From positions 2,545,501 through 2,609,500 of the forward strand of contig NZ_CP042435.1 in the NCBI RefSeq assembly GCF_007971225.1: 64,000 nucleotides of DNA. Reading direction: 5' to 3'. Each line of letters begins with the position of its first letter. Positions within the stretch are counted from its first letter, which is position 1. The stretch comes from Panacibacter ginsenosidivorans (GTDB lineage: Bacteria; Bacteroidota; Bacteroidia; Chitinophagales; Chitinophagaceae). Below, piece after piece: positions 4,422 to 59,996 of this stretch. The notes beneath the pieces were generated by a model, which did not search any database, had not been told where the DNA came from, and saw nothing but the letters and a program-made list of their open reading frames with translations. The position numbers were made by a program, and so were the translations under genes.

Positions 4422-5867
4422 TTAAGTGATAATTCCCTGCACCACTTTTCCTGAAACATCCGTTAACCGGTACCTTCTTCCCAAATGTTTAAAGGTTAAT
4501 TTCTCATGGTCTAAACCAAGTTGATTTAGGATGGTAGCATGAAAGTCGTGCACATGCACAGGATCTTTTGCAATATTGTATCCAAACTCATCTGTTTCTC
4601 CATAAACACCTGGCTTTATTCCCCCACCAGCCATCCAAACTGTAAAGCATCTTGGATGATGATCTCTTCCATAATTATCTTTCGTTAATTCTCCCTGGCA
4701 ATAATTTGTTCTGCCAAATTCACCACCCCATATTACCAATGTTTCATCAAGCAAACCGCGTTGTTTAAGATCGGTGATTAATGCAGCACTTGCCTGGTCA
4801 ACATCTTTACACTGACCAACAATTTCTCCAGGCAAATTATTATGACCATCCCAACCCTGGTGATACAATTGCACAAAGCGTACACCATTTTCTGAAAGTT
4901 TTCTTGCAAGCAAACAATTGGCCGCATATGTGCCGGGCACTAAACATTCCGGTCCATACATTTTTACAATTGATTCCGGTTCTTTAGTCAGGTCTGTAAT
5001 TTCAGGTACTGCGGTTTGCATTCTGTATGCAAGCTCATACTGTTGGATCTTTGCAGCAATTTCAGGATCGCCAAATTCTTTATAACTTTCTTCATTCAAC
5101 TCGCCTAATTTATCCAGCATCTTTCTGCGATCTTCTCTTGTTATACCATCGGCATCATTCAGGTAAAGCACGGGATGCTCACCACTACTGAATTGTACAC
5201 CCTGGTATGTTGAATCTAGAAACCCATTCGTCCAAAGCTTTGAATAAACACCTTGTCCATTTCCTTTTCCTTTCGAGAGCAACACACAAAACGACGGCAG
5301 ATTTTTATTCTCTGTTCCCAAACCATAACTCACCCATGCGCCCATGCTTGGTCTGTTACCAACCTGAGCGCCTGTTTGAAAAAATGTAAGTGCAGGATCA
5401 TGATTAATTGCTTCTGTAAAAATGGTTTTTACAATACAAAGATCATCTGCAATTTTTGCTGTGTGCGGAAGCAATTCACTAATGTATGCGCCTGCCTGTC
5501 CATACCTGTCGAATTTAAAAACAGTTCCTGCTAACGGAAATTTTTTCTGATCAGCAGTCATACCTGTTAAGCGCTGTCCCATACGGATGGATGCAGGCAG
5601 ATCCTGTCCATGCATTTGTTGGAGCAAAGGTTTGTAATCAAAAAGATCAAGTTGCGATGGTGCGCCATTCTGAAACAGATAAATTACTCTTTTTGCTTTC
5701 GGTGCAAAATGTGGAAGCCCCGCCATCACTGCATCTTCTTCTTTGCCGCTAAACAGATCAGGTATCAACAATGAACCCAACGCAACACTTCCCACGCCAA
5801 GACTTAATCTTGATAAGAATCTCCTTCGATTCATGTTCAACCTGTGTTCTATAAATTCTTTTGACAT
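4422..5867 (-). CDS. DUF1501 family exported protein
   Basis: 481 aa. The N-terminus carries a twin-arginine-type signal (NRRRFLSRLSLGVGS then hydrophobic), suggesting export of a folded protein. The body is a sulfatase/alkaline-phosphatase-like DUF1501 domain with the family blocks RVIYLFQNGAPSQLDLFDYK, FVQLYHQGWDGHNN, VIWGGEFGRT and DHHPRCFTVWMAGGGIKPG. DUF1501 genes are characteristically paired with DUF1549/DUF1553 cytochrome genes, and that partner lies upstream here (6237-8564). The biochemical role of the pair is not established. The 369-bp gap between the two genes is filled by a repeat pair. Confidence 0.9.
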   Translation of the reverse strand: MSKEFIEHRLNMNRRRFLSRLSLGVGSVALGSLLIPDLFSGKEEDAVMAGLPHFAPKAKRVIYLFQNGAPSQLDLFDYKPLLQQMHGQDLPASIRMGQRLTGMTADQKKFPLAGTVFKFDRYGQAGAYISELLPHTAKIADDLCIVKTIFTEAINHDPALTFFQTGAQVGNRPSMGAWVSYGLGTENKNLPSFCVLLSKGKGNGQGVYSKLWTNGFLDSTYQGVQFSSGEHPVLYLNDADGITREDRRKMLDKLGELNEESYKEFGDPEIAAKIQQYELAYRMQTAVPEITDLTKEPESIVKMYGPECLVPGTYAANCLLARKLSENGVRFVQLYHQGWDGHNNLPGEIVGQCKDVDQASAALITDLKQRGLLDETLVIWGGEFGRTNYCQGELTKDNYGRDHHPRCFTVWMAGGGIKPGVYGETDEFGYNIAKDPVHVHDFHATILNQLGLDHEKLTFKHLGRRYRLTDVSGKVVQGIIT

Positions 5868-5941
5868 AGTGTATAAGTAAAAAGTCAGAAAATCATGGAG
5901 AATATTTTTGTTGCCAGCTTTTATTCTTCATGTGATCGTCT

Positions 5942-6152
5942 GTTGTGTCACTCACTTGTACGTTCTATACTTTAATCGTCATTACGAGCCACATGAATAG
6001 CTTTTGAGCTTTAGCTATGTGGCGTGTGGTAATCTCGTGCAAAAAGTAAGAACATAATTCCAACAGATAGCCACATCGCCCTACACACATTATCTACGCT
6101 TCGCTCCCCGCTATGACGATTCTTATTCAACAGTACAAGAGTGCGACGCAAC
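5942..6152. repeat. REP-like inverted pair 2 (arm B left, arm A right) with a nested repeat
   Basis: Left core 5942-5961 is GTTGTGTCACTCACTTGTAC and right core 6133-6152 is GTACAAGAGTGCGACGCAAC. Between them sits a 148-bp segment bounded by AATCGTCAT (5974-5982) and its reverse complement ATGACGATT (6113-6121). The pair separates the DUF1553 and DUF1501 genes, which would otherwise look like an operon. The rest of the 5868-6236 gap shows nothing else. Confidence 0.75.
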
Positions 6153-6236
6153 AAAAGCTAAATATTTATTCTGTCGCCTTGGGGCAAAAAATAAATCTTC
6201 ATACTCTTTATAATCTCACCCAAATCCAGGTTCAGA

Positions 6237-8564
6237 CTACGTTTTAGTAATGCTCTCTTCTAAATTGTAGATCATCTCTATCACTTTCATCAATGCTGCT
6301 GATTCTGTTTTATCTGCTTTATCATTCATTGGATATTCGCCAACTTTCAGTGTAGTGTCTGCACTTAATTTCTTTTGCTGAAATGCTACAAGCTGTTCCG
6401 TATAATATTCGTTCAAAATTTTATTTTCATTTTCCGAAGGACGCCTGCACACAATTAACCGGAATGCTTTTGTGATCTTATCTTGTGCAGATGATTGCTG
6501 CAGCGCTAAATTTTGTGCAAGCACTCTCGATGCTTCCAGCATGGTTGGATCATTTTCCATGATGAGTGCCTGCAATGGCGTATTTGTTTTGGGTCGGTAT
6601 ACCTGACATTGATCGCGGTTGCTAGCATCGAACATGATCATTGATGGCGGTGGTACGGTAAGCTTAATGAATGTGTACATACCGCGGCGATACAAATCTT
6701 CTTTATGATCTTGTTTGTATGTTGCCAAGACGCCACGACCGGATGTTGCGCCTTCCCATAAACCTTTTGGCTGATAGGGTTTCACGCTTGGACCCCCTAT
6801 TGATTTATTAAGCAACCCACTGCTCGCAAGGATCATATCACGAATAGATTCCGCAGGCAAACGATTACGGGGACCACGTGCATAATACTTATTCTCGGGA
6901 TCTTTTTCTAATTGTTCTTTATTTGCAACATCACTCTGACGATAAGTTGCAGACATTACCATTTGTTTTACCAAACGTTTAATATCCCAGTTATGTTCCA
7001 TGAAATCAACAGCAAGCCAGTCGAGCAATTCAGGATGCGATGGCAATTCTCCCTGCATGCCAAAATCCCCCGAAGTTTTTACAAGACCTCTTCCAAAAAT
7101 TTCCTGCCATAATTGATTTACAAAAACACGCGCAGTAAGAGGATTGTTTTTATCAACCGTCCATGCTGCAAGACCAAGGCGGTTGCGTGGATACTTTGTT
7201 GTATCGTATGGAAGTATTGCTGTTGGTGCATGCGGCTTTACTTCATCTGTTGGCGAGCCATATTGCCCACGATTAAGCACATAAGTTTTGCGAACGCTAT
7301 CTTTCAATTCACCCATTACGGATACAGTCAGCTTACCTGTATCTTTTTTATTGATGAACTGCATTGTTCTTACAATGTCTGTATCATTTAAAGTAAGTAT
7401 AGGATGCTTTGCAGGCTGCGATACACTTACATCGCCTTCGTATCCAACTTCCTGCGTGTTGTTGAAAAATGCAAGCAACGAGTAATAATCTTTTTGTGGA
7501 AATGGATCGTACTTGTGATCGTGGCATTGTGCGCATTCGATGGTAATACCAAGAATGCCTTTACCGTAAGTTTTTGTTTTATCAATCAAATATTCAACAC
7601 GGTACTCTTCGGGAACAACACCACCTTCTTCTGTGTATTTATGATTGCGCAAAAAACCTGTTGCGAGTATTTCTTCTTTTGTGGCGTTGGGTAACATATC
7701 GCCGGCAATCTGCCATGTAATAAATTTATCGTAAGGAAGATTTTCGTTGAATGCATGTATCACCCAATCTCTCCATGGCCATTGCGTACGTATATTATCA
7801 TCCTGGTAGCCGTAAGAATCGGCATAACGCGCTATGTCTAACCAATGCACTGCCATATGTTCTCCATATTGCGGAGATGCAATTAGTTTGTCAACAATTT
7901 TTTCATAAGCAGTTGGAGAATTGTCTGCATTAAATGCATCCATCATTTCGATGGTTGGTGGCAACCCTGTAAGATCGAATGAAACACGTTTTAATAATCT
8001 TTCTTTATCTGCTTCTTCATTTGGTTTGAGTCCAATTTTCTCAAGCTTACTTAAAACGAAATAATCTATTTCATTCTTTGCCCATTTTTCATCACTTACT
8101 TTTGGCAATGCAACCTTTTTAGGTGCAGTGAAAGCCCAATGTTTCTCATACTTGGCACCTTGCTCAATCCATTTTTTTATTAACTGAACTTCGAAAGGTG
8201 ATAAGGATGCCAAATGCGAAATTGGTGGCGGCATCATGTATGATGTATCTGTTGAAGAAACTCTTTTATATAATTCAGATTCGTTTGGTTTAAAGGGTAC
8301 TAAAGCATATGCACCTTTTGTTTCCTTTAACGCTTTGAAAGCACTGTCGGCTATATCTAATCTTAACTGGGCTTTTCGTTTGTTTGCATCAGGTCCGTGA
8401 CATGCAAAACACTTGTCTGATAAGATTGGTCTTATATTAAAGTTGTAGCTAATGCTATCGGGCATAGTTGTTCCGTCTGCGGCAACTTCATTTGTGTTGC
8501 ATGCATTCATGAAAAAAACAGCAGCTGACGAAAGCAATAAAATTGTAATGAATATTTTCTTCAT
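6237..8564 (-). CDS. DUF1549/DUF1553 cytochrome-c-type (PSD1) protein
   Basis: 775 aa from ATG 8564. The in-frame start at 8627 would add a 21-residue hydrophobic leader and is less likely. The signal sequence ends in a cysteine (FFMNACN), possibly lipidated. A heme-binding CFACH lies near residue 49 (planctomycete cytochrome C domain) and a second CxxCH, CAQCHDHKYDPF, is the hallmark of DUF1549. DUF1553 fills the C-terminal third (NRLGLAAWTVDKNNPLTARV, GRGLVKTSGDFGMQGELPSHPELLDWLA). It probably acts in the periplasm or at the outer membrane with the DUF1501 partner. Substrate unknown. Confidence 0.9.
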   Translation of the reverse strand: MKKIFITILLLSSAAVFFMNACNTNEVAADGTTMPDSISYNFNIRPILSDKCFACHGPDANKRKAQLRLDIADSAFKALKETKGAYALVPFKPNESELYKRVSSTDTSYMMPPPISHLASLSPFEVQLIKKWIEQGAKYEKHWAFTAPKKVALPKVSDEKWAKNEIDYFVLSKLEKIGLKPNEEADKERLLKRVSFDLTGLPPTIEMMDAFNADNSPTAYEKIVDKLIASPQYGEHMAVHWLDIARYADSYGYQDDNIRTQWPWRDWVIHAFNENLPYDKFITWQIAGDMLPNATKEEILATGFLRNHKYTEEGGVVPEEYRVEYLIDKTKTYGKGILGITIECAQCHDHKYDPFPQKDYYSLLAFFNNTQEVGYEGDVSVSQPAKHPILTLNDTDIVRTMQFINKKDTGKLTVSVMGELKDSVRKTYVLNRGQYGSPTDEVKPHAPTAILPYDTTKYPRNRLGLAAWTVDKNNPLTARVFVNQLWQEIFGRGLVKTSGDFGMQGELPSHPELLDWLAVDFMEHNWDIKRLVKQMVMSATYRQSDVANKEQLEKDPENKYYARGPRNRLPAESIRDMILASSGLLNKSIGGPSVKPYQPKGLWEGATSGRGVLATYKQDHKEDLYRRGMYTFIKLTVPPPSMIMFDASNRDQCQVYRPKTNTPLQALIMENDPTMLEASRVLAQNLALQQSSAQDKITKAFRLIVCRRPSENENKILNEYYTEQLVAFQQKKLSADTTLKVGEYPMNDKADKTESAALMKVIEMIYNLEESITKT

Positions 8565-8655
8565 ATTGAACAAGCGCAGGAAGTATAAAGCTAACGAAAA
8601 AATTATCAGCATCGGCTCAATGCTCATTTATTGCTCAATATTGATAAGAATGTTG

Positions 8656-8711: not shown

Positions 8712-11324
8712 TTATCTTATTAATGTTACGGTGCCTTTATTGAAATAGGGAACGCCATTGTAGTCAACGGCTTTTACCATCCATACATAAGTGCCTGTAT
8801 TTTGTGGTATACCGTCTATTGTTCCATCCCATCCCCGGCCTTCTGTGCTTGTTGAAAAAATAAGTTGCCCCAAACGGTTATATACATTAAACATCTGTAT
8901 GCGTTGTATGCCTGCAAGAATTGGTTTGAGTATATCATTTTTACCATCACGGTTTGGCGTAAACCCAGTTGGTACAAAAACTGATGGAAGTGTTTTATAC
9001 ACTTTGATGGTAATAAAAGCTGAGTCTGCGCAACCTGCCTCGTTATTTACTATCAGCTTGTACCGGTTACCATCTGAGGGATAATAAAATTGGGCAACAG
9101 GACTGGCAATAAAGGGAGAAGATAAATTATTTGGTGGCGACCAAGTATAAGTTGACCCTCCACTTCCATTTAATTGTAACGGCTGATTGATGACGATGGC
9201 TGTATCGTGCCCCGCATATACATTAATTTTAGGTAGTACAGTAACAGTTACAGAATCGATACCAGGTTTTGGACAACCTTTGATATCATAAGTGGTAAGT
9301 ATATAAGTGGTAGTTGTTGTTGGATTTGCAATCGTATGCAAAGAAGTATAATTGAATAAACCAACAGACGGCGACCATTCGAACCTGTTGCCATCTGTAA
9401 CACCGTTCAATGAAACATTTGTACCAAAACAAATAATTGTATCGTTACCCGCAAGTGAAACAGGATAAGGTACCGTAACAACATTTATTTCATCTGAAGC
9501 AGTGCAACTGCCAATATTGGCCGTAACGGTATATTTTGTATTGCTGCTTGTTGTTGCAAAGGGCTGCTGAATAGTGGCATCATTCAACTGGTTTGCCGGT
9601 TGCCAGGTATAATGCAGTGCATCAGAAATATTATGCAATTGAATAGCATCCCCTTTACAAATGGTGGTATCTTTCATTGCCTGCATTGTTACATGATCCA
9701 CAACATTTACTGTTACTGAATCCCGGTTGGTGCATCCATCCCGGTCAAGGTCCACATAGTATTTGGTTGTATGTGTTGGTATAATAGTGGGGTTTGAAGT
9801 ATTCGCATTTAAAATTTCATTTGCAGGAGTCCAATTATAGATACCTACGGCGTTTGCTATTAGTTGTAATGTATCAGGTTTACAAATCAGGGTATCAGTA
9901 AACGCCAGCTGAATGGGCGGCTTTTCGAATATCTCAATGTTTTTATACACCGTATCAATACAGCCTTTGCTGTCTGTTACTATAAGGCTAACGCTTTTAT
10001 TTCCAAGAGAGGTGTAATTATATACCGGATTTTGAGTATTTGATACAGCATCTGAAAGTATATCTCCTGTGAAGTTCCATTGCCATGAATTGATCGTTCC
10101 ATAAACAGATGATGTAGCATCTGTAAATTGCGTTGCTTTATCTAAACATACTCCTTTATAATTGAAATCAGGTTTAAAGCCCGGGTACACTTTTATTTGA
10201 CTGTCTGTAGAATCGGCACATTTAGCATTCTCATTGATCTTGAGATTTACGTTGTATACACCTGTATCTGCAAAGGTATAATTTACGGTGGGGCTGGCAG
10301 AACTGAAAATGGTTTCACCCACATTATTTGTTATACTCCACTTATATGTTTGAATAAGTTCGCTTACAGAAAGATTTTCAAGGTTTACGGTATTTGTATT
10401 TCCACACAAAAGATAGGTATCGGCAAGAGATGCTGAAGTAAAAGAGCAGGAAGCAACATTTATCTGCAGATCTTTTCGTTGTGTAGCTATGTATTGCCCG
10501 TTTCTTCGCTCCTCTACAGATACTGCAATTACATAAGTACCGGGCGAAGGAGCAATACCACTAATCATACCTGTGTGTTCATCTATTTTTACATTATTGC
10601 CAAGAGGCTTGCCCCCACTATATTCAGGGCCATACGGCACAGAGCCATATGGTGGCGGAGCAGCTGGCGTAAGGTCGATACCAAACATAAAATTGTCAGA
10701 CCTGTACGCATAGGTCATGGAATAAGCAAGAGCATCTCCATCATTATCTTCTGCAGCAAAACTGTAATTAAATTCATGTCCTGCACAAACAATAACCAGG
10801 TCGCTATCAGCAAATTTTGCACTATTGTTTTTTGGTCCGGTGGTAATATTAAAAGTACCGGGTATTTCAGCAGTATAAGTAGCACCGATGTTTTGATAAC
10901 CGGGCATAAGATTGCTCATATTATTCACACGAAAAAATACTTCCGTTGTAAGCAAATAACCATCTGGAGATGCAGGTAGTGTAACATCAAAAATATAATA
11001 ACCTATACGGTTACAAACCTGCGGCGGGTTAGTTATACAATCATCATTATCTGTAAGACTGGTTACTTCAATTTTTGTGATCGGCACCGACAGATCACGA
11101 ACCCGAATACCTGTTTTCCTGTTAAAAACAGAGACAAAGGTTGGATTATAAAATTCCCTGTAGGAATTACATTCCATATACATTTTTACAGTTACTGTGT
11201 AAGTATAATCTGAGCCAGCAACGGATTTAAGTATATAAGAAATTTCACCGCCTTTTATATGGTCAGCCCTGGCATTATTTGCCAGGCTGGTAAGGATAAT
11301 ATAGAAGTAAATAATTTTTTTCAC
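8712..11324 (-). CDS. Surface protein with PKD-like repeats and gliding-motility C-terminal (CHU_C) domain
   Basis: 870 aa with a signal peptide (MKKIIYFYIILTSLANNARA). Residues ~20-280 form a conserved N-terminal module (HIKGGEISYILKS, FRVNNMSNLMPGYQNIG) often found in Bacteroidota surface proteins. The middle consists of PKD/Ig-like repeats (for example NSWQWNFTGDI, YTWQPANQLNDATIQQ, FEWSPSVGLFNY). The last ~90 residues are a type B T9SS sorting domain with the hallmark FTPNRDGKNDI and NRLGQLIF. The protein is therefore expected to be secreted by T9SS and placed on the cell surface. Adhesion is plausible but not shown. Confidence 0.9.
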   Translation of the reverse strand: MKKIIYFYIILTSLANNARADHIKGGEISYILKSVAGSDYTYTVTVKMYMECNSYREFYNPTFVSVFNRKTGIRVRDLSVPITKIEVTSLTDNDDCITNPPQVCNRIGYYIFDVTLPASPDGYLLTTEVFFRVNNMSNLMPGYQNIGATYTAEIPGTFNITTGPKNNSAKFADSDLVIVCAGHEFNYSFAAEDNDGDALAYSMTYAYRSDNFMFGIDLTPAAPPPYGSVPYGPEYSGGKPLGNNVKIDEHTGMISGIAPSPGTYVIAVSVEERRNGQYIATQRKDLQINVASCSFTSASLADTYLLCGNTNTVNLENLSVSELIQTYKWSITNNVGETIFSSASPTVNYTFADTGVYNVNLKINENAKCADSTDSQIKVYPGFKPDFNYKGVCLDKATQFTDATSSVYGTINSWQWNFTGDILSDAVSNTQNPVYNYTSLGNKSVSLIVTDSKGCIDTVYKNIEIFEKPPIQLAFTDTLICKPDTLQLIANAVGIYNWTPANEILNANTSNPTIIPTHTTKYYVDLDRDGCTNRDSVTVNVVDHVTMQAMKDTTICKGDAIQLHNISDALHYTWQPANQLNDATIQQPFATTSSNTKYTVTANIGSCTASDEINVVTVPYPVSLAGNDTIICFGTNVSLNGVTDGNRFEWSPSVGLFNYTSLHTIANPTTTTTYILTTYDIKGCPKPGIDSVTVTVLPKINVYAGHDTAIVINQPLQLNGSGGSTYTWSPPNNLSSPFIASPVAQFYYPSDGNRYKLIVNNEAGCADSAFITIKVYKTLPSVFVPTGFTPNRDGKNDILKPILAGIQRIQMFNVYNRLGQLIFSTSTEGRGWDGTIDGIPQNTGTYVWMVKAVDYNGVPYFNKGTVTLIR

Positions 11325-17022: not shown

Positions 17023-20000
17023 CTAATTGAAAAGGTAACGGATACCGAACTGCATTTGCCAACGTGAAAGAATGCTTGTATTATCAATATAACTGTTTAC
17101 AACTGGTATTTGATTTGCAGGATCAAGATATGGGAAAGAGAATCTTGGTCTCCCTGCATTATCAACATCTGTTGATGGTACCAGGCCTTCATATTTCAGG
17201 AATGACGTGCTGGTAAAGTTTTTTACGACGCCCCAGTTCTTATTGAAAAGATTGCCTGCATTGATAATGTCTAAGCTTAAACGCAGGGTGTGCTTCGTAT
17301 CTTTTTTACTGCCTGTAAAGAAATAAATGTCTTGTGTAATATTTATATCAAGGCGGTGGAAGTTTGGCAATACCGCTGCATTGCGTTGTGCAACTTCGCC
17401 ACGATGTTTGCTTAAATAAGGATCCTGATTTATAAAGTTGTTCAACTGGGCCCATATTTGAGCGGCAGTTCTTGTGTCTGTAATAGTTCCACCACCAGTA
17501 TTTACCGGAACAAGCACAATATCTGTCTGATCTTTTGGAATATAAATAAGATCATTGTTGCCACCTGTACCATCATTATTGGCATCGCCACTGTAAGTAT
17601 AAGAACCTACCCCTGCTGGCGCAGCCTCGAATATAATACCAACAGATGTTGCAAAATGTTTTGCATATTCTTTGCGATAAGATGCAGAACCAATAAAGCG
17701 GTGCGGCTGATAGAAATTAGCATACCCGAGTTCTTCTGCATTAGGATCTCCCATGACAGGCCTGTCTCTCCACATACTTGCAGCTATAGAACCACCATCA
17801 TTCAATGTTTTTGATTTGTTCAAAGTATATGCGGCGCTAAAATAGAAATTACGCAGGGTTTTCTGCAACTGTAATGTTACATTATAAGCATATCCTTTAT
17901 TTGAATTAGTCATAAGGATAGCATTGGAAATATTGGGATTTGTAACGGTAGCTGTAGGTTTACCTCCGTATAGCTTAGTACTGTCGTACCGGAGACGCGG
18001 ATCAGAGCCATTAAAGGCAACCCCTGTAGAAGGAAGGTTTACATTTTGGAAATAAACGCCATTGATATCTTTTGAATAAGTTGCTTCCAAAGTAGCCACT
18101 ATATTTCCAGGCAGTTTTCTATCCACAGCAAGGCTTGCTTTCAAAGCTTGCGGGTATTTAAAATCTTTATCAGTAAATACTAAATTATAAGCCACGTTTT
18201 CTGCAGTTGCATTTGGCCTGTAAGCATTAATATCATTATTGAAAGCTACACCTGTAGTAGAAAAAGAACCGAACTGTACACCATTATTACTTGCCTGGTT
18301 ACTGATCCAAACAAAAGGTGGCGGACCTGAGAATAAACCTATTCCACCGCGCAATTGCGTCTTTTGATCACCGGTTACGTCCCAGTTAAAACCAGCTCTT
18401 GGTGATATCAGCGGATTAGTGGCTGGCTTTTGGCCTACATCATATTTTTTTCCGTCGCGGAATACAAGATCTTTGGCATAAGGATTCGATTCAAATTTAT
18501 CCTGGAAGATTGGCACATCAACGCGTAACCCATAAGTAAAGGTGAAGTGAGTACCGATTCTCCACTTGTCCTGTGCAAATAATCCCAACTCTGTAGAACC
18601 AATTTCAGCGAAAGGGAAAGATCCGTCTTTTGTAACAGCATACTGCAAATTATAGCTAACAGCATTAGCTAAACCATTATTAGCACTGTTGTAAAAATCT
18701 GTAAGTGTATTAAAGCGGTAAACACCTTCATAATTAGGAGCAAAACCATTTTTAAATTTCTTAAAATAATTCTGCGTACCAATGGTTATTTCGTGTGAAC
18801 CTTTATACATTGTAAAAATATCACTCAACTGGTAGATATCTGTATTCAACAAATTATTATAAGTAAAGGGTTCATACCCAAAAGAAGTATAGGTTTGTCC
18901 CTGACCGTTCATAATATCAACCAATGGAAAATCTCCACCTGCAAGACTTGCTCTGAAATCTCTTAGAGCAGTATACCCAAATTGCAATTTATTTGATGAC
19001 CTATTACCAAAGCGAGTGTTCAATTCTGCGATGAGGATATTGAAGTTATTATTAATCCTGTAACCGCTGCCACTAAAAGGAAGACTTGTAGATCCGGGCT
19101 GACGGTTGCCTCCCGGCGCACCACTATTGCTGGCTGCAATATCCCGATAAGATTTTAAGTAATTGTATTTAATTGTGAAAGTGTTATTCCTGTTAATATT
19201 CCAGTCAATTTTTGCTGTGATCTTATCGCTATATGTATCATAGCTATAGCCCTGAAAAGAGCCGGGATCATAACCATATTTATCAATCAGAAATTGTTTA
19301 AGCTGATTCAATGTGTCTGCATTCGCCAGAGACACAGAGGAAGCATTTGGGGCGTGGGCTGCATCTGAAGCAATATAACTTGTTGCAGGTGCTGTGACCC
19401 TCTCCTGTTCGCCACTTATAAAAAAGAACAATTTATTTTTAATTACAGGTCCGCCAAAAGAGAAACCTCTTAGATTATAGCTAAAATCCTGATTAGGAAC
19501 TTTAACCGTTCCAACTCTGTAGCCTTGTGTATTAGGTCCTTTAAGATAAGTATATACAGACCCCTTAAATACATTTGTACCGCTTCTTGTTACAGAGTTA
19601 ATGCCTGCGCCGGAAAAACCTCCTTGTCTTACATCATAAGGCGAAATATTTACCTGTATTTGCTCAATTGCGTCGAGACTGATTGGTTGAGAATTTGTTT
19701 GGCCACCTAATGTACCCGAAAGACCAAAAGCATTATTAAAGTTAGCACCATCCACAGTAAGATTATTAAATGAGCCATTTCGTCCGCCAAAGCTTAACCC
19801 ATTTGCGGAAGGAGTAAGTTTGGTAAAATCCTGAAGAGAGCGGTTTATCGTTGGTAGTCTTTCCAACTGACTGCGGCTAATAATTTCCTGACTACCTGTA
19901 CGACTGTTGTTAAAAATTTTATTCTGGCTGATTGATGACACAACAACTTCTGTTAGTGTATTAGCTGAAGATACAAGTACAAAATCAGCTTTATATTCCT

Positions 20001-20301
20001 GCCCAAGTAGTAAAGAAATATTTTCCTGTTTTTCTTCTTTATACCCTATAAAAGTCACTGTTATGGTATAAGGTCCTCCTATCTTGAGGTTTGGCAAATT
20101 ATAACGACCGTCAGCCCGTGTGGTGGTGGCATACACTGTTCCCGTTGGGACGTGTAAGGCAGTCACAGTTGCTCCGACAACCGGCTTTTGGTCTGATATT
20201 ATAGTACCAATAATATCGGAGGTCGTTTCCTGAGCTGTTAATATCGTAGAAATACTTAATAAAAAGATAATACTGCAAAAAGAAATAAGGTATTTACTCA
20301 T
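17023..20301 (-). CDS. TonB-dependent outer-membrane receptor with carboxypeptidase regulatory-like N-terminal domain
   Basis: 1092 aa from ATG 20301; the in-frame codon at 20319 is TTG. Signal peptide to about residue 24 (SIIFLLSISTILTAQ). Residues ~28-110 form a CarboxypepD_reg-like beta-sandwich (GATVTALHVPTGTVYATTTR). The TonB plug (GGRNGSFNNLTVDGANFNNA) spans about 120-240 and the rest is a 22-strand-type barrel. It is related to Oar-like receptors rather than SusC: there is no SusD partner nearby. The substrate is unknown. It is divergent from the T9SS glycosidase-like gene at 20713 across a 411-bp gap. Confidence 0.92.
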   Translation of the reverse strand: MSKYLISFCSIIFLLSISTILTAQETTSDIIGTIISDQKPVVGATVTALHVPTGTVYATTTRADGRYNLPNLKIGGPYTITVTFIGYKEEKQENISLLLGQEYKADFVLVSSANTLTEVVVSSISQNKIFNNSRTGSQEIISRSQLERLPTINRSLQDFTKLTPSANGLSFGGRNGSFNNLTVDGANFNNAFGLSGTLGGQTNSQPISLDAIEQIQVNISPYDVRQGGFSGAGINSVTRSGTNVFKGSVYTYLKGPNTQGYRVGTVKVPNQDFSYNLRGFSFGGPVIKNKLFFFISGEQERVTAPATSYIASDAAHAPNASSVSLANADTLNQLKQFLIDKYGYDPGSFQGYSYDTYSDKITAKIDWNINRNNTFTIKYNYLKSYRDIAASNSGAPGGNRQPGSTSLPFSGSGYRINNNFNILIAELNTRFGNRSSNKLQFGYTALRDFRASLAGGDFPLVDIMNGQGQTYTSFGYEPFTYNNLLNTDIYQLSDIFTMYKGSHEITIGTQNYFKKFKNGFAPNYEGVYRFNTLTDFYNSANNGLANAVSYNLQYAVTKDGSFPFAEIGSTELGLFAQDKWRIGTHFTFTYGLRVDVPIFQDKFESNPYAKDLVFRDGKKYDVGQKPATNPLISPRAGFNWDVTGDQKTQLRGGIGLFSGPPPFVWISNQASNNGVQFGSFSTTGVAFNNDINAYRPNATAENVAYNLVFTDKDFKYPQALKASLAVDRKLPGNIVATLEATYSKDINGVYFQNVNLPSTGVAFNGSDPRLRYDSTKLYGGKPTATVTNPNISNAILMTNSNKGYAYNVTLQLQKTLRNFYFSAAYTLNKSKTLNDGGSIAASMWRDRPVMGDPNAEELGYANFYQPHRFIGSASYRKEYAKHFATSVGIIFEAAPAGVGSYTYSGDANNDGTGGNNDLIYIPKDQTDIVLVPVNTGGGTITDTRTAAQIWAQLNNFINQDPYLSKHRGEVAQRNAAVLPNFHRLDINITQDIYFFTGSKKDTKHTLRLSLDIINAGNLFNKNWGVVKNFTSTSFLKYEGLVPSTDVDNAGRPRFSFPYLDPANQIPVVNSYIDNTSILSRWQMQFGIRYLFN

Positions 20302-20712
20302 AACTGTCAATTTTTGCAAATTTGAGTACTGTGTATCAATTACATATTAATTGTATGTTATGGAATTATTAACTGATTTTTTTAAAAATTTTAATACTCT
20401 TCTTTAGATAAAAGTTTAAAGAATTATAAAAAAATTGCTCAGCAGCAAGAAAAAACGAGGTTATGTAAGATGTTTCATTAAATATATTATTTACTTAATA
20501 TATAATTCATTGCTTTTAAAAATTCTATAAGATTTAAAATTATACACTAAAAGGCTTGGTCATTTGAAAAAACGAAGACTGAATATTATAAAGCAAATCA
20601 ATGTCTTTGTGGGGCAAGACTTTGACATATTTCCCTCAGCAACAAGTTTAAGTGGTATTGTATTTGCTCCATTCACTTAGCCATTCATTTTATAACCCCA
20701 AAATTTAATCCA
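20302..20712. other. AT-rich divergent intergenic region, no gene seen
   Basis: This 411-bp gap separates the TonB receptor from the first T9SS protein and is the longest one in the window without a REP-like arm. On the minus strand CAAATTTG at 20317-20324 is a 7/8 match to the -7 box, 15 nt from the receptor ATG. On the plus strand TGTATTTG at 20659-20666 is a 7/8 match 46 nt before ATG 20713. The remainder is A/T tracts with short dyads such as CAATTACATATTAATTG. Confidence 0.4.
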
Positions 20713-22755
20713 ATGTCGAAGTTTTACAAGTTCTTCGGTATTAGCGCAGCTCTTATTTTATACACTCTTTTTTCGAATGCACAAACATCTAGCTATCAAA
20801 AAGCTACGCCAGGCATGTGGCAAACATTTGGAAATCCTGTCGACAGATCGCAATTCTCATTTGTAAACGGCCGGCTTTGTAATTTTTTATGGAAAGATAT
20901 TGAGCCTTCTAACAATGTATGGGATTTCACAACTTTTGACAAAGACCTTACAGATAGAACAAAAGATGGACTACCAGTGATTTTTATGGTTTATACAAAA
21001 GAGGATGCTCCGGATTGGATATATAGTGCGGGAGTGCCGAAAGTAACGGAGACAGATAATAACGGTAAGATAGTGGGGTACTCACCTTATTTCGCAGACA
21101 CAGACTATAAATATTTTTTTAAACGCATGATCCAAAAAGTACATAGTCATATTGAATCCTTGCCTACAACAGTACGAAACGGAATAGTTGGTGTACAAGG
21201 ATGCTATGGCAGTACCGGTGATTATATAAGTTATAAAGGAAATGTACCCTCTCAGTATGACTTGGATTCAAAACAGTTTCTTGACCTCTTCAAAGAATTC
21301 AGCCAATATTACTACAATGAGTACAAAAACACTAGCCCTAAAATTTACTTAATGAGCAATCCCCGCAACCAGGGCAATGATGCAGCAATATGGGTTCAAG
21401 ATAACTGTCCAGGGTGGCAAAAAACAGGCACTCTTGGAAAAGGTTTTCAGCTTAATGATGAGGCAGATAAATTAACCTGGTTATATGACATGATAAATAT
21501 TCCTCAAAACTCCGGGGAATATATGAGAACAAGATCTGAAATGACTCATGGGAATGTTGCTACCGGTTGGTGGAAAAGGGCTCCTTATAAGAATATGTTT
21601 GCGGTTATGTGTTATGGCATCTCCTGGGGCTTAGATTGGAGCAATCAGGATTATGCACAACTAAATGATAACAATTACGATTCTTCTTTCTTATTTTTTT
21701 CAAAATATGCCGGTCAAAAAAACCCTGCTTCCAGCACAAATGCAATGTGCGCACTTAAAGATGCGTTGGACGCTGCCGATGCAAAGCGCTTTCCTGCATC
21801 CACTTATGGTACTGTGTCAAGAACAAATCAACAGCGCTATATAAATATTGCTAATAAATATTCTTCCAAAGGAGCTCTGCTGGAAGATGTAAAGTCTGCT
21901 ACATTAGCCGAAATGGATAATATTCGGGCAAGTGGTACAAACGACGTTGGCTGGAATTTGATGCCAGGCAATTATGACCGTTTTCTACATCAGTTAATTC
22001 CAAACAAAACCAGTATTGGCTACTGGAATATTCAATCAAAAGATAGCAATAGTATGTATGGCAGGTTTGGTCGTGCCTTTGACGTAGCACATAATAAAAT
22101 GGGCTTATACTTTGATGTTGACAATGCATTTTTTTCCAACAAACCTTTAAAAGGACAATACACTATAACTATTGAAGTAACTTATCTTGATAAAGGTACT
22201 GGAGGCTGGCAATTATATTATGATGCACAAACCGGCCCAGATAAAGCTTCTGGCATTATTAGCTGCACCAATACCAATAAATGGAAAAAAGCAACCATTA
22301 CAATACCCGATGCATATTTTGGCAATAAAGGGCCAAATGCTTCTGACTTTAGTATAAGAAGTACCAGCAAAAAGCAGGACGTTATTTTTTCTGTGGTAGA
22401 ATTATCAAGGCCTTCAAATTTTGCATTTAGTACTAAATCTGCCATTTCAATGCTATCATCTAATACCAATAGCCAGGCAACAAGTATTACAAATGATACA
22501 AATGTAAAAGATCAATTGCTGATCAATCCCAACCCTGCAACGGATCATTTTTATATTCAAACAAAAGATAGCCAACTTATAAGGCAGGTTATTATTTATA
22601 ATCAATCCGGGCAAATAATACTTCAGAAACAAGTATCGGCAGGATTAGTAGTTGTAGTAAACAGAAATGAGATGGCCGCTGCTACACCCGGCATTTATTT
22701 CATAAAAGTGAGCACGGCAACTGCCCTATATACAGGGAAACTCATGGTGTTATAA
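20713..22755 (+). CDS. T9SS-secreted glycoside-hydrolase-like protein, copy 1
   Basis: 680 aa with a signal peptide (FFGISAALILYTLFSNAQ). Residues ~30-400 look like a TIM-barrel glycosidase of the beta-galactosidase/GH42-like type: GRLCNFLWKDIEPSNNVWDF, FMVYTKEDAPDWIY and GVQGCYGSTGDYISYKG. A beta-sandwich region follows (residues ~440-590). The last ~75 residues are a type A T9SS sorting domain (NPNPATDHFYI, TPGIYFIKV). The next gene is a longer paralogue. I cannot assign a GH family or a catalytic pair by eye, so the enzymatic role is inferred from fold-like motifs only. Confidence 0.78.
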   Translation: MSKFYKFFGISAALILYTLFSNAQTSSYQKATPGMWQTFGNPVDRSQFSFVNGRLCNFLWKDIEPSNNVWDFTTFDKDLTDRTKDGLPVIFMVYTKEDAPDWIYSAGVPKVTETDNNGKIVGYSPYFADTDYKYFFKRMIQKVHSHIESLPTTVRNGIVGVQGCYGSTGDYISYKGNVPSQYDLDSKQFLDLFKEFSQYYYNEYKNTSPKIYLMSNPRNQGNDAAIWVQDNCPGWQKTGTLGKGFQLNDEADKLTWLYDMINIPQNSGEYMRTRSEMTHGNVATGWWKRAPYKNMFAVMCYGISWGLDWSNQDYAQLNDNNYDSSFLFFSKYAGQKNPASSTNAMCALKDALDAADAKRFPASTYGTVSRTNQQRYINIANKYSSKGALLEDVKSATLAEMDNIRASGTNDVGWNLMPGNYDRFLHQLIPNKTSIGYWNIQSKDSNSMYGRFGRAFDVAHNKMGLYFDVDNAFFSNKPLKGQYTITIEVTYLDKGTGGWQLYYDAQTGPDKASGIISCTNTNKWKKATITIPDAYFGNKGPNASDFSIRSTSKKQDVIFSVVELSRPSNFAFSTKSAISMLSSNTNSQATSITNDTNVKDQLLINPNPATDHFYIQTKDSQLIRQVIIYNQSGQIILQKQVSAGLVVVVNRNEMAAATPGIYFIKVSTATALYTGKLMVL

Positions 22756-22787
22756 ATCAAGCGGCACAAAGATTTATGGATGAACGT

Positions 22788-22960
22788 AATGCGACGCAAC
22801 GATGATGCTATGAAAAATTACAGCCTGCTCCATAAAATATTATTATAGCAATATTGTTAAACATGCATAATATAAAATGGCCTGAGTCAGGAGTTTTAAA
22901 GAAAAGATTTTTAATTCCGGTCCTTGGCAATGCTATTGTGCATCGTTGCGTCGCACTCTT
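22788..22960. repeat. REP-like divergent pair (outward-facing inner ends)
   Basis: Left arm AATGCGACGCAAC (22788-22800) with the B tail GATGATGCTATGAAAA, and right arm GTTGCGTCGCACTCTT (22945-22960). Compared with other pairs the arms face the opposite way, tails inward. The pair lies in the 332-bp gap between the two T9SS paralogues; the rest of the gap is AT-rich with no gene. Confidence 0.6.
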
Positions 22961-23087
22961 CAAAGTTTTTCTATAATTGAGCAAAAATTTATTCTGTTTC
23001 ACATCAAATGCTTTTAACGAAATTCATTTAAGCTGTTTAAAAGCTAAATATCAAAAAAAAGTTTAATTTTTGTGGTTATTCCCCCTA

Positions 23088-26000
23088 ATGAAAAGAAAGA
23101 CGTTTATTATCTTATTATCCAGTCTTTGTGGTTTTGTCGCACCCCAATCAATATTTGCTCAAAACCCCGGCTCCATGTTTAATTATGGCGTATGGCAAAC
23201 CTTTGGGGATCCTATTAATGTTGTACAATACCCCGAAATAAAAGGCCGGCTCTGCAATTTTAACTGGAAAGACATTGAGGTTGCAAACAATGTCTGGGCC
23301 TGGGATTCATTTGATATTGAGCTTACCAGAAGGGCACAGGATTCATTACCTATTATATTTCTTGTTTATACAGAAGAAGGAGCGCCAGATTGGATATATG
23401 ATCTTGGCGTGCCCAAAGTAGCGCAAAATGAAAACGGCACAATTACTTATGCCCCATACTACGCAAATAACAGGTATAAAAACCTTTTTAAAAGAATGAT
23501 CACTACAGTGCATCAGCACATTGAAACTTTGCCTTATCCTGTTAGAAAATTTATCATTGGTGTACAAGGCTGTTTCGGTAGCACCGGAGATTATATCGGT
23601 TATAAAGGAACTGTAGATTCTCAATATGCATTAACTGATGAACAATTTTTTGGTCTATTCACTGAGTTTAGTCAGTATTATTATAACGAATACGTTAATA
23701 CAGATCCCAAAATATATCTCCTAAGTAACCCACAGAATAATGGGCAAGATCAAATGAACTGGCTTATTCAGAATTGCCCCAATGGTTGGATTAAATGTGG
23801 CTCTATTGGCAAAGGTTTTCAGCTTAATGATGAAGTGTATAAGTCTGGTTGGTTGTATAATCTCTTAAACTATCCTCAAAACGGAGATTACATAAGATCA
23901 AGATCTGAATTACAGTTTAATCCGGATGAAAGTGGCTGGTGGAGCGAGTATAAATACAAGAATATGTTTGCATTAATTACTTATGATATTTTCTGGGGTC
24001 TTGATTGGAGTAATCAAGCCCCGGGTCAAATATTCGATCAACAATATGATTATGCCTTTAATTTTTACAATAAATACGCCGGTCAAAAAAAACCATCAAC
24101 AGCAACAAACGCTATGTGCGCATTAAGAGATGGTCTTAATGCTGCTGATACAATTCGTTTCCCTGTAAGCGTATATGGCAAAGCTGACAGAGCAGATACT
24201 ACGAGGTATAAAAATATCGCAACCAGGTTTGCAAAATTTGGCGCCCGGCAAGAGGATCCGCTAACAGCAACGCTTGGTGAACTTAATAACCTTGCTGCAA
24301 ATGGTATTAATGATGTAGGGTGGGATGTTTTTCCAGGTAATTATGAACGCTATCTGCATCAATTAAAAGCAAATGAAACAAGTGTGGGGTACTGGAACGT
24401 GAGAGCTCTTGCAGATTCTAATACTATGTACGGCAAATATGCAAGAGGTATTAATGCTACAAATTCAAAGAATGCGCTGTATTTTGACGTCGATAGTCTT
24501 TTTTTAAATAATGCGCCAGTCAACGGCAAATACCCCATCATTGTTGATATTACATATCTTGATAGTGGTTTTGGTGGTTTCAGGATGTTTTATGATGCAA
24601 AGACATCTACAAATAAATCATCACTTGCTGTACAGTTAACCAATACAAATGTTTGGAAAAAAGCATCAGTTACACTTTACGATGCTTATTTTGGAAACCG
24701 GGCCTTCAATGCATCTGATTTTTACATCCAGGCTATTAATAATCAAAATGTACTTTTTAGTGTAGTGGAATTAAGCAGACCGGATTCTGCCAACCCGAGA
24801 CTTGGGCTTTTTACACAAGAATCATTACTTTTTGATACAATTTGTACAAAATCTACAGGCAGCATTAAGTCTTTTATATTGAATGGCTATTTCTTAAATG
24901 GTTCAAATATCTTAATAAGTCCTTTGCCGGGGTACAGTTTTTCTACTGCTATAAATGGAACATTTACAGACTCGCTTATTATCAGTAGTTATGGTACCGG
25001 AATAAATAAATCTATCTATGTAAAATTCTCTCCGCTAAAAACAAATGTTTATAGTGGCAATGTTTTCATCTCAGGTGGTGGGTATAAAGCAATATCAATG
25101 GCGCTAAAAGGTGCAGGTATAAACAGCAGACCTGTATTAACCGCAAATATTTCAAATGCAAGTTGCAATAACACAAAAAATGGGGCAATTGATCTTGTGG
25201 TAACGGGTGGTGCAGGCCCTTTCTCATATAGCTGGACAACTGATTCATTTCCCTTTAAATCAACAACTGAAGATATAAACGGATTATCACCTGCAAATTA
25301 TTCTGTTACCGTTAATTCATTTGGTGGTTGTACTGTAACTGCTGAATACATTATAACGCAACCGAGCATCTTATCTGCCTCTATAAAAAAAGACAGCGAT
25401 ATTGTTTGTAAAGGAAGTACTACTACAGTAACAGTTTCAGCAGTTGGTGGAACAACACCTTATGCTGGTACAGGAATATTTACAGTAAGTTCAGGTAATG
25501 TATCGTTCGTAGTTACAGATGCAAATGGCTGTGCTTCCGAAACGGATAAAATAACTATTTTACCGGGAGCTTTGGTTGTACCACCGAAACCAGATGAAAT
25601 AAAAGGTAATGATGGAGGAGGGCTCTGTGACGGTGGTACTTTTTATTATGCTGCATCACCTGTGAGTTCCGCCACCTCTTACACATGGACTTTACCTGCA
25701 GGTACCGTAATTAAGAAAACCAGTGCAAAAAAAGACAGCATTTCTCTTACTGTACAAGCGGAATTTGCAGAAGGTACACTTTTAGTAACCGCAAACAATG
25801 TATGTGGCAGCAGCCTGCCTGCTTCAAAAACTATAACTGCAATTCCTGAAAAACCTGTTGGTATATCAGGACCTGTAAGTGTTTTTGCAAACCAGGCAGG
25901 CCTCATCTACAGTGTTATAAATCCAAAATCAGTTTTAACTTACACATGGTCATCCAGTAGCGGAACAAGAATAACAACAGGCCAGAATACCTGGCAGGCA

Positions 26001-26405
26001 ACTATAAACTGGGGTCCTGTTGATGGAAAAGTAAATGTAAAAGCAAACAATAATTGTGGCTCATCTGGCCCTGCAAGTATTGATGTTACGGTTTTATCTC
26101 CCGCATTGCAAAACACATTAAAAACTAAAGTCAAAAACAAAAGCAATATAAAAAGCCTTTCGGCAATTGTTATGCCTAACCCCGCTAATACACTTGCCAT
26201 AGTTGGTTTTATTGCAGAAAAAACGGATGTTTATGAGATGGAGTTAACTGATCTGACGGGTAAAACATTACTACGAAAAAAACTTACATCAATAATTGGT
26301 GCAAATACAGAGAAAATAAACATGCAGCCGTATTCCAATGGACTTTATTTCATTACACTTACAAATAATACGGGTAGGGTGACTTTAAAAGTCATCAGGA
26401 ATTGA
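23088..26405 (+). CDS. T9SS-secreted glycoside-hydrolase-like protein, copy 2, with SprB and PKD-like repeats
   Basis: 1105 aa from ATG 23088; an in-frame TTG at 23070 would add six residues. Residues ~25-570 are collinear with the preceding protein (GRLCNFNWKDIEVANNVW, EGAPDWIYDLGVPKV, VQGCFGSTGDYIGYKG, QYYYNEY, FQLNDE, WGLDWSNQ). Copy 2 then adds an HYDIN/ASPM-like sandwich, an SprB repeat near 688-760 (SCNNTKNGAIDLVVTGGAGP), two PKD-like modules and a type A T9SS sorting domain (MPNPANTLAIVGF, NGLYFITL). The two genes look like a tandem duplication in which copy 2 gained surface-anchoring repeats. Catalytic activity is unproven. Confidence 0.8.
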   Translation: MKRKTFIILLSSLCGFVAPQSIFAQNPGSMFNYGVWQTFGDPINVVQYPEIKGRLCNFNWKDIEVANNVWAWDSFDIELTRRAQDSLPIIFLVYTEEGAPDWIYDLGVPKVAQNENGTITYAPYYANNRYKNLFKRMITTVHQHIETLPYPVRKFIIGVQGCFGSTGDYIGYKGTVDSQYALTDEQFFGLFTEFSQYYYNEYVNTDPKIYLLSNPQNNGQDQMNWLIQNCPNGWIKCGSIGKGFQLNDEVYKSGWLYNLLNYPQNGDYIRSRSELQFNPDESGWWSEYKYKNMFALITYDIFWGLDWSNQAPGQIFDQQYDYAFNFYNKYAGQKKPSTATNAMCALRDGLNAADTIRFPVSVYGKADRADTTRYKNIATRFAKFGARQEDPLTATLGELNNLAANGINDVGWDVFPGNYERYLHQLKANETSVGYWNVRALADSNTMYGKYARGINATNSKNALYFDVDSLFLNNAPVNGKYPIIVDITYLDSGFGGFRMFYDAKTSTNKSSLAVQLTNTNVWKKASVTLYDAYFGNRAFNASDFYIQAINNQNVLFSVVELSRPDSANPRLGLFTQESLLFDTICTKSTGSIKSFILNGYFLNGSNILISPLPGYSFSTAINGTFTDSLIISSYGTGINKSIYVKFSPLKTNVYSGNVFISGGGYKAISMALKGAGINSRPVLTANISNASCNNTKNGAIDLVVTGGAGPFSYSWTTDSFPFKSTTEDINGLSPANYSVTVNSFGGCTVTAEYIITQPSILSASIKKDSDIVCKGSTTTVTVSAVGGTTPYAGTGIFTVSSGNVSFVVTDANGCASETDKITILPGALVVPPKPDEIKGNDGGGLCDGGTFYYAASPVSSATSYTWTLPAGTVIKKTSAKKDSISLTVQAEFAEGTLLVTANNVCGSSLPASKTITAIPEKPVGISGPVSVFANQAGLIYSVINPKSVLTYTWSSSSGTRITTGQNTWQATINWGPVDGKVNVKANNNCGSSGPASIDVTVLSPALQNTLKTKVKNKSNIKSLSAIVMPNPANTLAIVGFIAEKTDVYEMELTDLTGKTLLRKKLTSIIGANTEKINMQPYSNGLYFITLTNNTGRVTLKVIRN

Positions 26406-48230: not shown

Positions 48231-48428
48231 TGATGACCAAAGCGCGGCTGCCCGATACCCAAAAAAATGTTTTGAATAAGATAGGTTGTAATGCTGATCA
48301 AAACTTATTATGGCATATCAAGTATTACTAATGAATTTTATAGCGTGTTTAATTAGCAATACAATGAAAATTAATTTACTTTTCGTTTTTGATTTATGTG
48401 TGGCATTATAAAAATGAAACCCGGAATA

Positions 48429-59896: not shown

Positions 59897-59996
59897 TGTT
59901 GTCGCTATTGCTGCATCTCATTATTCTGAGTGATGATTGTCACCGTTATTCTTTTGATGTGATAATAGCTTTATGCTGTTTTAAAATATGCAAACT

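Follow-up and report, generated by a model that had tools for sequence, protein, structure and literature searches.

The subject of this study is a pair of adjacent genes in a stretch of 64,000 nucleotides (hereafter the window) from Panacibacter ginsenosidivorans (NZ_CP042435.1, positions 2,545,501 to 2,609,500), which sits in a single-contig genome of 5.53 Mb. Both genes lie on the forward strand, and their products, P0001 and P0002, share a core followed further on by a sorting domain of the type IX secretion system (T9SS). With somewhat more confidence than doubt, we propose that the core represents a glycosidase family unnamed in Pfam and NCBIfam, probably for sulfated galactose-containing glycans, and that the pair belongs to a surface-displayed branch detached from the gene clusters in which other members are found.

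The two genes and their products

P0001, the short member with 680 residues (20713..22755, + strand), consists of a signal-peptide-like start, a (β/α)8 barrel domain (20806..21939), a C-terminal all-β, jelly-roll-like domain (21973..22407, residues 389-533 of our alignment A2) and a Por_Secre_tail/TIGR04183 sorting domain found by both Pfam and NCBIfam (22522..22749), the first two domains being delimited by the secondary structure of an AlphaFold2 model and the barrel also by the fold search. P0002, the long member, lies downstream on the same strand (23088..26405) and has 1105 residues if counted from the ATG at 23088, which is likelier than the TTG at 23070 given in the list of open reading frames (ORFs) and is followed by a signal-peptide-like stretch; in both proteins these N-termini were recognized by eye. 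Its core (23166..24812) is followed by a SprB repeat (PF13573, 39.9 bits for the whole protein against a cut-off of 28; the better of two stretches at 25140..25244), a PKD_6 module (PF19408, 96 bits for the whole protein against a cut-off of 25; the better of two stretches at 25845..26087) and a Por_Secre_tail sorting domain (26172..26396). The common core covers about 545 residues with 56-57% identity, and a search of this genome with the P0001 protein as query recovered the P0002 locus at E 5e-210, far above chance. An earlier note on this DNA had described the two ORFs as collinear over a shared region with three identical blocks, and this is confirmed: both ORFs lie at the positions given, and each protein contains QYYYNEY, FQLNDE and WGLDWSNQ a single time, at residue numbers that are almost equal. 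Conserved columns are found in the all-β part as well (alignments A2 and A5).

The tails of P0001 and P0002 score 38.3 and 36.6 bits against TIGR04183, with a cut-off of 23, which assigns them to T9SS type A, and SprA, the T9SS translocon component that was searched, is present in 9/9 genomes, with 2393 bits in the own one. The secretion signal claimed in the earlier note is thus borne out on both proteins, and the sorting domains together with SprA suggest that both are secreted. The architecture of P0002 is like that of the SprB-repeat T9SS surface proteins of Bacteroidota in its SprB repeats, PKD-like modules and type A tail, and unlike them in carrying an enzyme-like barrel at its N-terminus.

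Predicted fold and candidate catalytic residues

The structure prediction and fold search that the earlier note had suggested were carried out on the core of P0001. The AlphaFold2 model, built from an alignment of 30 sequences, has a pLDDT of 92.6 and a pTM of 0.91 and consists of a (β/α)8 barrel of the glycoside hydrolase (GH) type and an all-β domain behind it. By VIA-align, rows 1-30 of the result are GH14 β-amylases with Z 15.1-17.2 over 276-290 residues, the best being 1vep (278 residues aligned, 3.2 Å), and entries of GH35, GH42 and GH5 come next with Z 14.3-14.9; Foldseek placed GH35 on top at E 2e-9 with a TM-score of about 0.39. For a homologue from the Planctomycetes-Verrucomicrobia-Chlamydiae (PVC) group, modelled with a pLDDT of 80.6, the barrel alone matched 5gsm and 5gsl, titled 'Glycoside hydrolase B/A', at Z 19.8, tied with β-amylases at Z 18.0-19.6. 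We take 5gsm and 5gsl to be of the exo-glucosaminidase type. The predicted barrel is therefore of the β-amylase type, with other GH barrels tied or just 1-3 Z units behind.

At the sequence level, weak matches were found to GH42 and GH35 β-galactosidases and to GH10 xylanases, and the listed matches to entries of the Protein Data Bank (PDB) stay within the N-terminal region of the profiles (to position 172 of 534 and 186 of 571). The Pfam GH42 model PF02449 matches P0001 with 22 bits against a cut-off of 21, only partially (profile positions 28-119 of 376), and does not match P0002; at E 0.001 the partial match occurs in 3/24 members of the T9SS branch, the clade of relatives that contains the pair. 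A plasmid search for GH14 relatives gave 18 matches, all at E 5 or more. Since the fold matches GH barrels while the sequence matches are partial and N-terminal, the GH barrel predicted for the core is well supported and a named family is not, as judged on Pfam and NCBIfam. The statement of the earlier note that the proteins are glycosidase-like and cannot be placed in a GH family agrees with this, for GH barrels are what the predicted fold and the weak sequence links alike indicate, and no family of Pfam or NCBIfam covers the core. Because both lines favour GH barrels, the two outcomes that the note had named as contradicting it did not occur with the libraries searched, these being a match to an established GH family that has the standard catalytic residues, and a fold that is not enzymatic.

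Three known families invite comparison. By VIA-align, the whole core is closest to GH14 β-amylases (Z 17.2), which also tie for the best match to the PVC barrel (Z 19.6), and their strand-4 motif lines up with that of the present family; they differ in an identity of just 8-15%, in a Glu where this family has Asp, in another C-terminal domain and in context, which is sulfatases for the relatives, not starch. GH42 and GH35 β-galactosidases share the barrel fold, and P0001 has the partial Pfam GH42 match, which does not go beyond the first third of the profile; they are unlike this family in that no Asn-Glu is seen at strand 4 in the motifs listed. The GH167 exo-carrageenase, as described in PMC6923384, has a GH42-related barrel and acts with sulfatases on a sulfated galactan, which is the likeness of interest here; BovGH167 is built of four domains, among them an additional helical one at the N-terminus and an α/β domain B, and its Glu295 and Glu472 are 177 residues apart, whereas P0001 has one all-β domain and its Asp170 and Glu276 are 106 apart. 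No GH167 chain was recognized among the PDB and fold matches listed, nor was a solved GH168 chain (8YA6 and others named in PMC11943901) among the PDB sequence matches with E up to 1. Within the literature search, which covered openly accessible articles in part, PMC11943901, PMC6923384 and PMC10880615 among them, no description of the present family was seen.

Two residues stand out as a candidate catalytic pair. Asp170 of P0001 (21220..21222; Asp138 in the numbering of A2) lies in GSTGD after barrel strand 4 and may be the catalytic acid, and Glu276 (21538..21540; Glu244 in A2) lies in RSE just after strand 7 and may be the base or nucleophile; the corresponding candidates in P0002 are Asp168 (23589..23591) and Glu274 (23907..23909). 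In a first set, D138 was found in 59/59 and E244 in 60/60 rows with a letter (8 and 7 rows have gaps), and in a widened set both are invariant in 80/80 members, which are the distinct members kept from 148 aligned stretches, each with at least 400 aligned residues. The strand-4 motif IVGVQGCYGSTGD lines up without gaps with IIDIEVGLGPAGE(186) of soybean β-amylase, whose last residue is Glu186; this is a likeness of motifs, not a structural superposition, and by it the family has Asp at the Glu186 position, the match of Glu244 to Glu380 being our assumption. The catalytic role of Glu186 and Glu380 in β-amylase is stated in the PDB title of one of the fold matches.

The weak sequence links also allow the core to be a classical retaining enzyme of clan GH-A with the ordinary mechanism, belonging to a family of CAZy outside Pfam and NCBIfam. 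GH42, GH35 and GH10, in which the sequence matches fall, all belong to clan GH-A. An Asn-Glu acid/base motif at the end of strand 4 is a feature of this clan, however, and none is seen there in the motifs listed, the two window genes having Cys-Tyr and Cys-Phe; moreover, the PDB matches reach just the N-terminal part of the profile noted above. We therefore regard this explanation as rather unlikely.

Relatives, genomic contexts and proposed role

Six members were found by protein search in the own genome, the window pair included. P0003 (locus L017) has 1098 residues and the architecture of P0002, P0004 (L018) has 784 residues and only the sorting domain behind the core, P0005 (L019) has 1646 residues with nine SprB stretches, and P0006 (L020) has 680 residues, is divergent and lacks the sorting domain. 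Their loci lie amid unrelated ORFs, often of housekeeping type as judged by eye, and a TonB-dependent receptor is about 4.3 kb from P0006. Beyond this genome, a scan of named genomes gave 28 loci of relatives in Chitinophagaceae, other Bacteroidota, Verrucomicrobiota, Kiritimatiellota, Planctomycetota and Sumerlaeota. Members occur in 9/195 genomes of the same taxonomic family, Chitinophagaceae, and in 2/395 of a sample of the phylum, both from that family (E 1e-20), as well as in 7/387 genomes of the phylum of the Opitutaceae genome G579 and 2/392 of that of the Planctomycetes genome G587 (E 1e-30). All four counts include the centre genome, and the copies per genome in the phylum-wide surveys are lower bounds, at most three candidates being scored in each. 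The scan of named genomes and that of the taxonomic family are not independent samples, since G070, G063, G148 and G107, which carry L024/L032, L030/L033, L021 and L025, recur in both.

In a tree of 54 rows, the T9SS branch forms one clade of 24 members (support 100/100). The tree was made without the duplicates L085, L086 and L088, the fragments L042:1- and L087:3- and the distant L035:3- and L039:991-, and L018 was entered as a single span of its open ORF. A sorting domain is present in 23/24 members of the clade, the exception presumably being L026, whose ORF runs off its locus. The metagenome-assembled Sumerlaeota genome G576, which is behind L034, contains 13 stretches that match the family, of which seven are long (loci L090, L102, L113, L116, L118 and L119), and L116 and L118 branch next to the T9SS clade with SH-aLRT values of 89 and 98. 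As a side observation, G576 might represent a donor lineage for the T9SS branch.

The genomic contexts outside the T9SS branch are rich in sulfatases. Sulfatase-like neighbours are present in 9/13 non-Bacteroidota loci (PVC or Sumerlaeota), the four others being L034 (8.6 kb), L044 (5.4 kb), L045 (7.6 kb) and L046 (13.5 kb); a Pontiella locus encodes two sulfatases along with one esterase-like protein and one that is melibiase-like. In the Chitinophagaceae genomes G010, G134 and G135, 13/13 members lie within 15 kb of a sulfatase, in clusters. The G010 loci contain melibiase-like proteins, galactokinase (GalK), galactose-1-phosphate uridylyltransferase (GalT), aldose epimerase and a SusD, and a galactokinase is also present in the Verrucomicrobia locus L039. 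SusC and SusD are carried by the G134 and G135 loci; both stand beside a member in L082 and L087, and SusD also in L080. A formylglycine-generating-enzyme domain and GH109-like proteins are among the partners in some cluster loci. In six genomes with the T9SS branch, on the other hand, 0/30 members, including P0006-like and other divergent ones, lie within 15 kb of a sulfatase, despite 9-15 sulfatase matches per genome; in the two best assemblies (G000 and G058) the count is 0/11, and the nearest miss among the 30 is 17.4 kb. This contrast rests on few lineages. The T9SS branch thus sits apart from sulfatase clusters, a location that says nothing on what it acts upon.

Two observations concern esterase-like partners. 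In L037:5794-8175, from Opitutaceae, the ORF of the member extends into an α/β-hydrolase or esterase-like C-terminus, and in the Pontiella locus (L041:7482-8285) the esterase-like protein is a separate gene next to the member.

We suggest the following scenario. The ancestral setting was probably a polysaccharide-utilization cluster, in which members would have worked alongside sulfatases to cut sulfated glycans that contain galactose. Within a single lineage of Chitinophagaceae, a branch may have gained SprB/PKD stalks and a sorting domain for the T9SS, moved out of the sulfatase clusters and multiplied into several scattered copies per genome, P0001 being perhaps a secondarily shortened one. 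The signal peptide would export the protein by the Sec pathway, the T9SS would carry it across the outer membrane and then anchor or release it, and in P0002 the SprB/PKD stalk might hold the barrel off the cell and give it reach. The barrel would bind and most likely hydrolyse environmental polysaccharide, with the Asp after strand 4 as acid and the Glu after strand 7 as base or nucleophile. If this holds, a glycosidase family of sulfated-glycan clusters with two testable catalytic residues has been missed by Pfam and NCBIfam, and it provides an example of an enzyme that left a utilization cluster to become a displayed surface protein.

A number of points weigh against this scenario. The Foldseek TM-scores are low, about 0.3-0.5, and the Pfam GH14 model PF01373 is matched neither by P0001 and P0002 (E up to 10) nor in the own genome. 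The galactose link consists of a handful of loci. Of the 30 members away from sulfatases, 15 come from fragmented assemblies, where their contigs show no sulfatase match and some of them lie close to a contig end, and a member of the T9SS branch, L025 (= L088), lies about 0.9 kb from a TonB receptor and 5.3 kb from a SusD, so the detachment of the branch from SusCD loci is incomplete. L035:3-1475 and L039:991-2553, nearly the same protein and outside the 80 members, match only outside the motif region and lack GSTGD. To our knowledge, no member of the family has been assayed. The predicted fold, the architecture, the invariance and the contexts were computed, and from them we infer secretion, catalysis, the acting residues, the substrate and the direction of evolution. 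Finally, a weak comparison with GH10 (domain i-Evalue 0.02) sets the acid/base of clan GH-A within one residue of position 133 of A2; the acid/base at this aligned site is presumably a Glu, the matched entry itself having Ala. Position 133 is Glu in 25/80 members (20 + 5), found in PVC and P0006-like ones, whereas it is Phe, Tyr or Leu in rows of the T9SS branch, and for this reason the T9SS-branch proteins could be dead enzymes.

Taken further, this last point leads to an adhesin, in which a T9SS-exported barrel deprived of its acid/base would serve as a lectin-like head on a SprB/PKD stalk for attachment or gliding. The lack of Glu133 in 24/24 T9SS-branch rows, the GH10 comparison, the stalks and the distance from sulfatase clusters all fit such a role. 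Against it, members within sulfatase clusters are also without Glu133, with Thr in its place in the VKTGCTGDE group and Phe in L079:6396 and L081:4811; Phe is likewise the residue in L116 and L118, the nearest outgroups, and D138 and E244 are invariant throughout the 80 members. We consider the adhesin unlikely for these reasons. Because cluster-borne members too lack Glu133, D138 and E244 are preferred as the candidate catalytic pair; Glu133 was rejected as a universal acid/base and is retained as an alternative in some groups of members. An exchange between Glu133 and Glu218 was rejected as well: 49 of the 54 rows have one only, 4 have both and 1 has neither, but among 26 further members 20 have one only, 1 has both and 5 have neither (one with Asp at 218), the trees require just 3 (54 rows) and 4 (80 rows) changes at each site, and sign tests were unsupportive. 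A more far-reaching version of the proposed scenario, which we hold to be doubtful, combines both roles: a new family with a β-amylase-like Asp/Glu pair would be dispersed among Chitinophagaceae, Verrucomicrobiota, Kiritimatiellota, Planctomycetota and Sumerlaeota and dedicated to sulfated galactose-containing glycans, and one lineage would have turned it into multi-copy stalked surface proteins which recognize, perhaps without cutting, the same glycans for attachment.

Two groups of relatives deserve separate mention. A sub-branch with Thr133 and Ser218 (L041:252-4163, L108, L109, L117 and L128; ORFs of 708-1409 residues) has kept D138 and E244. The distant L035:3-1475 and L039:991-2553 lie beside PVC members, the former without a Pfam match, and perhaps form a sister family in the same clusters.

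History of the pair and its surroundings

Within the T9SS branch the long architecture prevails, with long forms in 20/24 members, SprB in 20/24 and PKD_6 in 19/24, and the short forms of the P0001 type nest among the long ones. The tree requires at least two changes, of which the simplest account is one gain of SprB/PKD near the base and one loss in the group of short forms comprising P0001, its congener and UBA4407. As the long SprB forms make up 20/24 of the branch, the short copy P0001 has probably lost its modules, and the view of the earlier note that the second copy gained them is probably the wrong way round. If the proposed history is right, annotators should take the SprB/PKD form as usual in the T9SS branch and the short form as exceptional.

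The arrangement is kept in the same-genus genome G058, where locus L083 has the divergent TonB-type gene, the short and the long member and the counterparts of the next two window genes in the same order. The cores of the congeners are 69-71% identical, with dN 0.20-0.24 and dS too high to compute, and the tails are less conserved. A recent local tandem duplication, with the downstream copy gaining SprB/PKD, is what the adjacency of the two genes on one strand would suggest, and an approximately unbiased (AU) test, with p 0.19, does not reject keeping the pair and its congeners together as one clade. In the same-genus genome, however, a separate orthologue is found for each copy (100/100 support), the best tree splits the pair by placing P0002 with the Limnovirga forms (97/87) and P0001 with UBA4407 (92/58), and SprB is common in the branch. 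Since each copy has its own congener orthologue, the duplicated surface enzyme of the earlier note is unlikely to be a recent local event, and we consider such an event improbable; an older joint origin is what the AU value would allow.

The pair is flanked by an OMP_b-brl_4 protein and a VWA/YfbK protein. The former is a TonB-type outer-membrane barrel (CarboxypepD_reg and OMP_b-brl_4; 17023..20319, - strand), divergent from the pair, and is 38% identical to its syntenic counterpart in L083, compared with 69-71% for the cores; we judge it to be outside the system. No SusD was found among the 10 other window proteins scanned, nor in the window by two SusD queries. The description of the pair as lying beside a TonB receptor without SusD therefore stands as to the neighbour and the missing SusD, not as to a receptor belonging with the pair, the gene being divergent and its barrel of the OMP_b-brl_4 type. 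That the pair is part of a non-canonical glycan-uptake locus with this gene, as the earlier note had supposed, is highly improbable in spite of the adjacency kept in L083 and of the other T9SS-branch member near a TonB receptor and SusD, given the divergent strand, the barrel type, the 38% identity and the lack of SusD in the window, and we see in the TonB-type neighbour no grounds for proposing an uptake locus at this site.

PADLOC gave no defence-system match for P0001 or P0002 at E 0.1, and Rfam gave no RNA element in the window at gathering scores. Between 20200 and 26700, promoter-like sites (23) are not in excess of the shuffle mean of 26.0; terminator-like sites (10) exceed the mean of 4.4, yet all 10 fall within listed ORFs.

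Elsewhere in the window, two more candidates for T9SS cargo were noticed, namely a PKD/CHU_C protein (8712-11324) and a Kelch protein with Por_Secre_tail (59988-61481), and a further glycosidase-type gene, encoding a GH65-like protein, lies far from the pair (55818-57848). An ORF of 1143 residues without a Pfam match at E 1e-4 (44594-48025) is followed downstream by a 1130-residue FG-GAP repeat protein with an ASPIC/UnbV domain (48396-51788). At 4422-8627, a DUF1501 protein stands beside a PSCyt1/PSCyt2/PSD1 ('planctomycete cytochrome C') protein in this Bacteroidota genome.

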